This document shows positions 2,620-45,560 of a stretch of DNA of 64,000 nt, in pieces (the stretch's first letter is position 1; every line of letters begins with the position of its first letter). The notes beneath the pieces are model-generated. The model was given only the letters and a program-made list of their open reading frames with translations, ran no database searches and had not been told where the DNA came from. The position numbers were made by a program, and so were the translations under genes. Source of the stretch: Patiria pectinifera (lineage: Eukaryota; Echinodermata; Asteroidea; Valvatida; Asterinidae); NCBI GenBank assembly GCA_029964075.1, contig CM057145.1, forward strand, positions 1,674,001 to 1,738,000, written 5' to 3'.

Positions 2620-2827
2620 ATGATCTTCGCTATTCTTGTGTGTCTGGTGCCGGCCGCCCTGGGTTACAGCACAGGACCGCCGGTAGGGCGAAGCAATCCC
2701 AACTTGTGCACCGACATGGTACCGGCCGGTCACAACGGTGGGGTTAGTATGGCCACGGACCAAGACAATCCTCCCTACGCTATCGATACCTCATCTAGCG
2801 AGTACACCCCGAATGGATCTTTGACAG
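2620..2827 (+). CDS. Exon 1: signal peptide and start of Reeler domain
   Basis: Residues 1-70. Hydrophobic leader [15 protein letters not shown] followed by [12 protein letters not shown] and a Cys in [14 protein letters not shown], the usual opening of a Reeler (reelin N-terminal) domain. Donor is TTGACAG|GTACGT, phase 1. The mature protein probably begins near Tyr-16. Reeler domains occur in reelin, SCO-spondin, insect immune-induced proteins and FRRS1-type proteins. Confidence 0.8.

Positions 2828-45560: not shown

Follow-up and report, generated by a model that had tools for sequence, protein, structure and literature searches.

DMBT1/SALSA and CD163 are scavenger proteins that lack a 7TM region, being either secreted or anchored by a single pass, and to our knowledge the human ADGRG receptors carry no SRCR, Reeler or HYR domain. 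SRCR-bearing adhesion GPCRs have been reported in amphioxus (PMC2246102), and SRCR domains are present on two adhesion GPCRs, Aq712029 and Aq715659, of the sponge Amphimedon (PMC4302439). Compared by description and not by sequence, these receptors come without any mention of Reeler or HYR in the main texts of the two reports. The initial annotation of the locus described here saw in the combination of Reeler and SRCR with HYR and HRM what looks like an invertebrate-specific recognition receptor. A survey of SRCR genes places 7tm_2 among the top five SRCR partner domains in A. planci (PMC10855680), an 'adhesion GPCR G2' is named in female Acanthaster skin (PMC9759900), and one further source contains the term 'HYR domain' and may mention HYR on an adhesion GPCR (PMC12716839). 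Among the matches listed in the open-access literature, neither a sea-star family of the present kind nor a Reeler adhesion GPCR was found described. Here we report a gene of Patiria pectinifera which almost certainly encodes an adhesion GPCR about 2,585 residues long, as judged from the sequence of a window of 64,000 nucleotides, the whole stretch of DNA that was analysed.

A single plus-strand gene was rebuilt from codon-biased open stretches, a splice-aware model and hand-checked gaps, and begins with the ATG at 2620 and ends with the stop codon at 45558-45560. Its uninterrupted frame of 2,585 codons, followed by the stop, is spread over 35 exons; all 34 introns, 119 to 3,140 bases long, are of the GT-AG type with matching phases, the splice sites having been hand-picked among scored candidates. 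The coordinates of the initial annotation were used solely as a later comparison. The independent reconstruction arrived at the identical ends (2620 and 45560), and the matching phases and intact frame held good, but the 37 exons and roughly 2,623 codons claimed earlier were not reproduced, both totals being slightly above those found here. The hand-checked model replaced an automatic one (30 exons, 2,065 aa), which had missed EGF3, SRCR6, the first GPR128_N exon, two GAIN exons and the TM2 and TM3 exons, had shortened the Reeler exons and SRCR9, and had included unsupported extras at 3488-3579, 4566-4592, 9793-9841, 27774-27811 and 46386-46404. Additional inter-module exons found by splice score alone lacked homology and were discarded, and an extra linker exon at 8080-8112, possible and unsupported, was left out. 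Symmetric phase 1-1 exons account for 20 of the 35, including all 12 SRCR, three EGF and three HYR exons, so that insertion and duplication of these domain exons would be possible without damage to the frame.

A Pfam domain search of the joined protein, which the initial annotation had proposed, was run on ten consecutive pieces and bore out its order and counts of Reeler, 12 SRCR, three EGF, three HYR, GPS and 7TM domains, while the domain it had called HRM is better described as GPR128_N/HRM-like. From tip to membrane, the predicted order is Reeler, SRCR1-5, three EGF, SRCR6-12, three HYR, GPR128_N/HRM-like, GAIN/GPS, 7TM and a short tail; the protein would thus have the long multi-domain ectodomain with signal peptide that characterises adhesion GPCRs. 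Exon 1 (2620-2827) holds the start codon, the signal peptide and the first part of the Reeler, which continues, by splice model and Pfam, through exon 2 (3955-4106), exon 3 (5292-5383) and exon 4 (6979-7094), the last also encoding a Thr-rich linker. The Reeler scored 87.3 bits over exons 1-4 (cut-off 21), and a search of solved structures by sequence gave no match for it. Exon 5 (9316-9393), a Ser/Thr-rich linker without homology, is the least certain exon of the model.

SRCR stretches above the Pfam cut-off were found as 5 + 3 + 4, giving 12, and EGF stretches as three. SRCR1 to SRCR5 correspond to exons 6 (10024-10335), 7 (12514-12819), 8 (15960-16286), 9 (18205-18510) and 10 (20247-20585). 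EGF1 (PF00008), EGF2 and EGF3 follow in exons 11 (22768-22881), 12 (23826-23939) and 13 (24059-24172); EGF1 resembles the EGFs of the annotated Acanthaster planci protein LOC110982977 isoform X2 (hereafter P0001), and EGF2 and EGF3 likewise rest on Pfam and P0001 homology. SRCR6 to SRCR12 lie in exons 14 (25375-25698), 15 (26054-26392), 16 (27156-27491), 17 (29372-29698), 18 (30358-30687), 19 (31180-31515) and 20 (31865-32197), identified by Pfam and by comparison with P0001. The HYR domains, in exons 21 (32820-33101), 22 (34754-35029) and 23 (35328-35555), scored 29.6, 47.1 and 31.5 bits (cut-off 21.7); for HYR3 the acceptor at 35328 was preferred to the better-scoring one at 35349, as it retains a conserved Cys. 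Every SRCR domain is a single exon (10024-32197), ten of the 12 with six canonical cysteines and none with eight. Outside this gene, SRCR domains of group A, those with six cysteines, are as a rule encoded by two exons. The SRCR1 exon starts at three in-phase tandem acceptors (10024, 10030 and 10036), which could yield small length variants. The donor that serves SRCR1, SRCR2 and SRCR4 is missing from SRCR3 (16286) and SRCR5 (20585), where a same-phase site 21 bases downstream could stand in.

The cysteine-rich domain that follows scored 32.4 bits with GPR128_N (cut-off 27.2) over exon 24 (35828-35929) and exon 25 (36700-36827), the latter also homologous to relatives. As the HRM model PF02793 gave only E 0.017, in one of five family members, the HRM label was set aside for GPR128_N/HRM-like. 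The Pfam GAIN model was not reached either (E 0.1 in one of five family members), though the HYR-to-TM1 region, taken as a profile of the window gene together with four relatives, gave an alignment with the GAIN domain of ADGRG6 (6v55) over profile positions 74-376 with E 3.1e-18. This match supports the presence of a GAIN domain containing the GPS, as the initial annotation had claimed. The GAIN region is assigned on this profile to exons 26 (37563-37709), 27 (38311-38695) and 28 (38966-39156), the last two by homology as well. The GPS, at 52.0 bits (cut-off 22.5), lies in exon 29 (39556-39729), where cleavage is predicted between HA and T and the tethered agonist would begin with TNFAILV. 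The HxS/T cleavage tripeptide and the hydrophobic tethered agonist expected of an adhesion GPCR are thus present at the level of sequence, and the motif HATNFA is shared by the window gene and 24 of 25 sea-star relatives, the remaining one having HGTNFA. Self-cleavage and a tethered agonist are accordingly predicted for the window receptor. The P1 residue of the GPS is usually Leu; here it is Ala, which makes the efficiency of cleavage unsure.

The seven-helix core typical of adhesion GPCRs (class B2) was recovered as 7tm_2 at 142.1 bits (cut-off 20.6) over exons 30-35. By Pfam and homology, TM1 is in exon 30 (40510-40634), TM2 in exon 31 (42703-42802), TM3 in exon 32 (43238-43403), TM4 in exon 33 (43825-43891), TM5, TM6 and the start of TM7 in exon 34 (44379-44655), and the rest of TM7 with the cytoplasmic tail and stop in exon 35 (45354-45560). 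The acceptor of the TM3 exon is weak, but the same AG/GGTTC boundary is present in an inverted paralog described below. The intron that follows contains, at about 43564-43605, a degenerate and incomplete duplicate of this exon's 3' end. Two tandem copies of the acceptor and opening bases of the TM5-7 exon lie 71 bases apart (44308 and 44379), and use of the upstream copy would cause a frameshift. The solved sequences nearest to the 7TM are ADGRG6, ADGRG4 and ADGRG2 (E 7e-43 to 1e-41), that nearest to the GAIN is ADGRG6, and GPR128_N is shared with the human-type receptors ADGRG2, ADGRG4, ADGRG6 and ADGRG7/GPR128. On this ranking by nearest solved 7TM and GAIN, together with GPR128_N, membership in the ADGRG subfamily (human group VIII) may be considered.

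Residues 1880-2585, comprising the base of the receptor, were used as query against the 7,983 candidates of 1,422-4,524 aa sharing most words with it, a limit which leaves relatives beyond sea stars possible. The query gave 34 protein matches, 25 of them from Acanthaster planci, Patiria miniata, Asterias rubens and A. amurensis; nine more, six from insects, two from frogs and one from a crab, were 22-31% identical. By these matches the gene is a sea-star one, probably closer to Acanthaster and Patiria than to Asterias. Identity to the base was 57-74% for 23 of the 25 sea-star proteins (one covering 73% of the base) and 39% for two, the best match being P0001 at 74%. Like the window receptor, P0001 has seven SRCRs colinear with SRCR6-12, followed in the same order by an HYR region (two HYR stretches by Pfam), GPR128_N, GPS and 7TM; it differs in having four EGFs at its N-terminus, with its own signal-peptide-like start and without Reeler or SRCR1-5. 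Precomputed Pfam lists, with which fresh scans of five of the 25 agreed, contain GPS and 7tm_2 in all 25 sea-star proteins and HYR in 23; within the relatives P0002-P0025 (Patiria, Acanthaster and Asterias) GPS and 7tm_2 occur in 24/24, HYR in 22/24 and SRCR in 10/24. These relatives differ from the window receptor in that an LDL-receptor-like propeller, a nidogen-like domain, discoidin or no such head may be present. Counted over all 25, the heads are SRCR without NIDO in seven, NIDO without SRCR in two, NIDO with SRCR in four, LDL-receptor-B propeller in nine, discoidin in one and none of these in two, and some of these counts may reflect incomplete models, since a strongly hydrophobic N-terminus is missing in ten of the 25. 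Reeler is listed in none of the 34 protein matches.

By domain content and sequence, then, the predicted receptor is a member of a family which keeps a near-constant HYR-GPR128_N-GAIN-7TM base and carries varied heads. Its exact domain set is found in none of the 34 protein matches, the Reeler and the split SRCR array being the new elements as predicted. The suggestion of the initial annotation that this is an invertebrate type of receptor agrees with that result, but the gene is no lone oddity, having at least 25 sea-star relatives. On the base tree, a minimum of five changes of head type is needed, a count made on 24 of 26 receptor rows and without a shuffled control, with NIDO + SRCR rows scored as NIDO and P0006 and P0024 unscored. 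Nine of the 25 inner branches of this tree are unresolved, the window gene was not placed, and a long-branch warning was obtained for P0024 and P0025. We put forward only tentatively, and with some doubt, the wider idea that sea stars run a repertoire of recognition GPCRs with interchangeable heads on a constant HYR-GPR128_N-GAIN-7TM base, the heads including cation-dependent SRCR arrays, propellers, nidogen-like domains, discoidin and here a Reeler. Such heads would have been grafted by phase-1 exon shuffling and local exon duplication, and surface pattern recognition would be wired directly to tethered-agonist G-protein signalling.

The SRCR domains of the window receptor were compared with those of scavenger proteins and of the relatives. 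SRCR1 matches four solved sequences of DMBT1 at E <=1e-36, and matches the long arrays of CD163 over nine stretches. In the SRCR8 domain of SALSA/DMBT1, one cation is held by D1019, D1020 and E1086 and another by D1020, D1058, D1059 and N1081, and with D1019 or D1020 changed the domain no longer bound hydroxyapatite, heparin or a domain of a streptococcal surface protein (PMC7043408). Cation-site residues of the window SRCRs were identified by motif correspondence with SALSA and not through a structure of the window protein. They are DDDDNE, DDDNNE, DDDDNE, DDDDNE and DDDDNE in SRCR1-5, that is, the SALSA site is intact in all five, SRCR2 having one D changed to N. The triad of two Asp and the Glu (DD+E) was present in 5/5 of SRCR1-5 and in 0/7 of SRCR6-12, where the DD is already lost in SRCR6; the Glu is kept in all 12 window SRCRs and also in those of P0001, P0015, P0016 and P0018. 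On the basis of this difference, SRCR1-5 would be the head and SRCR6-12 the stalk. Under a looser rule allowing D, E, N or Q, SRCR10 (1/7 of SRCR6-12) and s5 of P0001 (1/7) also pass, and the split between head and stalk is less sharp under such rules.

Among the relatives, the strict DD+E triad was found in 0/7 SRCRs of P0001, 9/9 of P0015, P0016 and P0018 together, 1/1 of P0017, 0/1 of P0020 and 0/8 of P0025. The long arrays of P0002-P0005 have it in 12 of 45 counted domains (P0002 1/7, P0003 3/14, P0004 4/11 and P0005 4/13), SRCR matches of <=80 residues having been dropped (one in P0004 and one in P0005). Owing to shared descent these counts are not independent events. CD6 binds its ligand despite having lost calcium dependence (PMC7043408), and since the arrays of P0002-P0005 also mostly lack DD+E, loss of the cation site would leave binding possible. 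With this reserve, SRCR1-5 rather probably form a cation-dependent binding head, and the rest of the extracellular array (SRCR6-12) is likely to act as a stalk.

The two sets of SRCRs also have different relationships. All six canonical cysteines are present in 5/5 of SRCR1-5 and in 5/7 of SRCR6-12; SRCR7 and SRCR9, like s2 and s4 of P0001, have lost the first and the fifth. These two cysteines are also missing in s3 and s7 of P0001, whereas SRCR8 and SRCR12 keep them. When SRCR6-12 were scored against the seven SRCRs of P0001, the diagonal score was highest for six of seven, SRCR8 being best with s6. In the SRCR tree, SRCR6, SRCR7, SRCR9 and SRCR12 pair with s1, s2, s4 and s7 of P0001 at 97-100 bootstrap, SRCR8 and SRCR11 fall in one clade with s3 and s6, and s5 is not the partner of SRCR10. 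SRCR1-5 group together (87/84), and this group nests in a clade of 14 rows (100/98) whose other members are the nine SRCRs of the Asterias relatives P0015, P0016 and P0018. This grouping suggests that such a head type was already present on the receptor family. As SRCR1-5 form their own clade and have flanking intron sequence in common, they appear to have arisen by local duplication. The dN/dS values of the ten SRCR1-5 pairs ranged from 0.23 to 0.48.

It was pertinent to ascertain if the Reeler-SRCR1-5 end and the rest of the receptor belong to one transcript. From EGF1 to the C-terminus the protein is supported by colinear homology to P0001, while for Reeler-SRCR1-5 no annotated relative with the same layout was found among proteins of 410-1,300 and 1,422-4,524 aa; the join therefore rests on splice phases, on the strongest signal peptide (at 2620) and on the open frame. 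The signal peptide at 2620 has a hydrophobicity of 2.95, against <=2.34 for seven other candidate ATGs with a phase-1 donor on the plus strand of 1-46000. The other reading places two genes side by side: one, from 2620 to about 20.6 kb, would encode a secreted Reeler-SRCR1-5 protein, and the next an adhesion GPCR starting at or before the EGF exons. It draws on the signal-peptide-like start that P0001 has just before its EGFs, on the weak donor of SRCR5 (CAG/GTTGGT), past which the unspliced exon reads to a stop just beyond 20632, and on an AATAAA at about 21,546, downstream of SRCR5. A full-length relative carrying this Reeler was not found either, the search of proteins of 1,422-4,524 aa giving none at E 0.001; but a separate Reeler protein fared no better, as no relative was found at E 10 among proteins of 410-1,300 aa. 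Moreover, a first exon that has both a signal-peptide-like sequence and a phase-1 donor is absent from 20000-22760 at the same threshold, the one candidate between SRCR5 and EGF1, at 21538, being weak and appearing only under a relaxed rule. The N-terminus of P0001, sought in the window by tblastn, gave nothing convincing (best E 2.0). Phases agree across the SRCR5-EGF1 junction, and SRCR1-5 cluster with SRCRs borne by the sister receptors P0015, P0016 and P0018. We consider the two-gene reading unlikely, and hold with fair assurance that one transcript joins the Reeler-SRCR1-5 end to the rest of the predicted receptor.

The overall account which we favour, with moderate confidence, is that of an intact sea-star adhesion GPCR with an SRCR1-5 binding head, a stalk, a self-cleaving GAIN and tethered-agonist signalling. 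SRCR1-5 would form the head and bind, in a Ca/Mg-dependent manner, polyanionic or repetitive surfaces, be these microbial, matrix or self, and the EGF, SRCR6-12 and HYR domains would serve as a long stalk. The GAIN would cleave itself at HA/TNFAILV during maturation. Binding of a ligand, or a pull on the head, would then release the tethered peptide TNFAILVDVKGQ, which could enter the 7TM core and start G-protein signalling. The family keeps its HYR-GPR128_N-GAIN-7TM base and changes its heads, which the phase 1-1 domain exons would have aided.

What such a head would recognise is a separate matter. It is quite possible, if short of probable, that the receptor is used in recognising microbes; a role in pattern recognition or immunity is plausible, the predicted chemistry of the binding site being compatible with it. 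The same receptor could instead have its job in adhesion, tissue mechanics or recognition of self or gametes, its SRCR head binding sulphated matrix or mineral, and this too we regard as a genuine possibility lying below an even chance. The ligands of adhesion GPCRs are for the most part matrix and membrane proteins, and EGF and HYR are matrix-type modules; both points count for that role. So does the binding of SALSA SRCR8 to heparin and hydroxyapatite through the same cation site (PMC7043408). Turnover of heads across the family fits recognition of changing targets better, and SRCR genes as a class have raised expression in digestive tissues linked to immunity (PMC10855680), but neither point is decisive. 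If the account of a recognition receptor is true, one gene would make a physical link between scavenger-type recognition and G-protein signalling, and the relatives of this gene would be a case of heads being exchanged over an unchanging signalling base in animals that lack antibodies; this might be one route by which recognition is linked to signalling in an antibody-less animal. SRCR1-5, with the site intact, and SRCR6-12, with the site lost, offer a direct and simple test of the binding part, and the locus is a defined case of exon-by-exon change in adhesion GPCR ectodomains.

The 3' part of the gene is repeated within the window. An inverted duplication spanning 42650-63420 and centred at about 52-53 kb has the 7TM exons, the tail and intergenic stretches recurring tail-to-tail on the minus strand. 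The inverted paralog (58031-63368, minus strand) consists of the 3' part from TM2 to tail, with open frames, and is cut off by the end of the window; its exons are TM2 63368-63273, TM3 62785-62621, TM4 61164-61102, TM5-7 60272-59997 and tail 58234-58031. Between receptor and paralog dN/dS was 0.18 over 268 codons, with 0.04 to 0.38 per exon. The dS per exon was 0.08 for TM5-7, 0.14 for TM4 and 0.34-0.41 for TM2, TM3 and tail (TM3 0.41), and the low value of the TM5-7 pair (59997-60272 and 44379-44655) may mark a gene-conversion tract. Such repeats, the inverted 3' duplication and the intronic duplicate fragments would fit a locus that is non-functional or mis-assembled, with decayed or collapsed tandem copies mimicking one gene. 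That is highly improbable, however, given 2,585 codons without a stop, dN/dS values that stay under 0.5 for each of the ten SRCR1-5 pairs and come to 0.18 for the 7TM pair, and retention of the GPS and cation-site motifs; the reading of an intact receptor gene is therefore retained. Scans of the window for tRNA and Rfam families were empty. A reverse-transcriptase fragment (RVT_1, 37.2 bits, cut-off 29.6) lies upstream of the gene at 1310-1726, and minisatellites are present at 3466-3713, 40041-40281 and 58716-59127, with units of 12/36, 24 and 11 bases, respectively.
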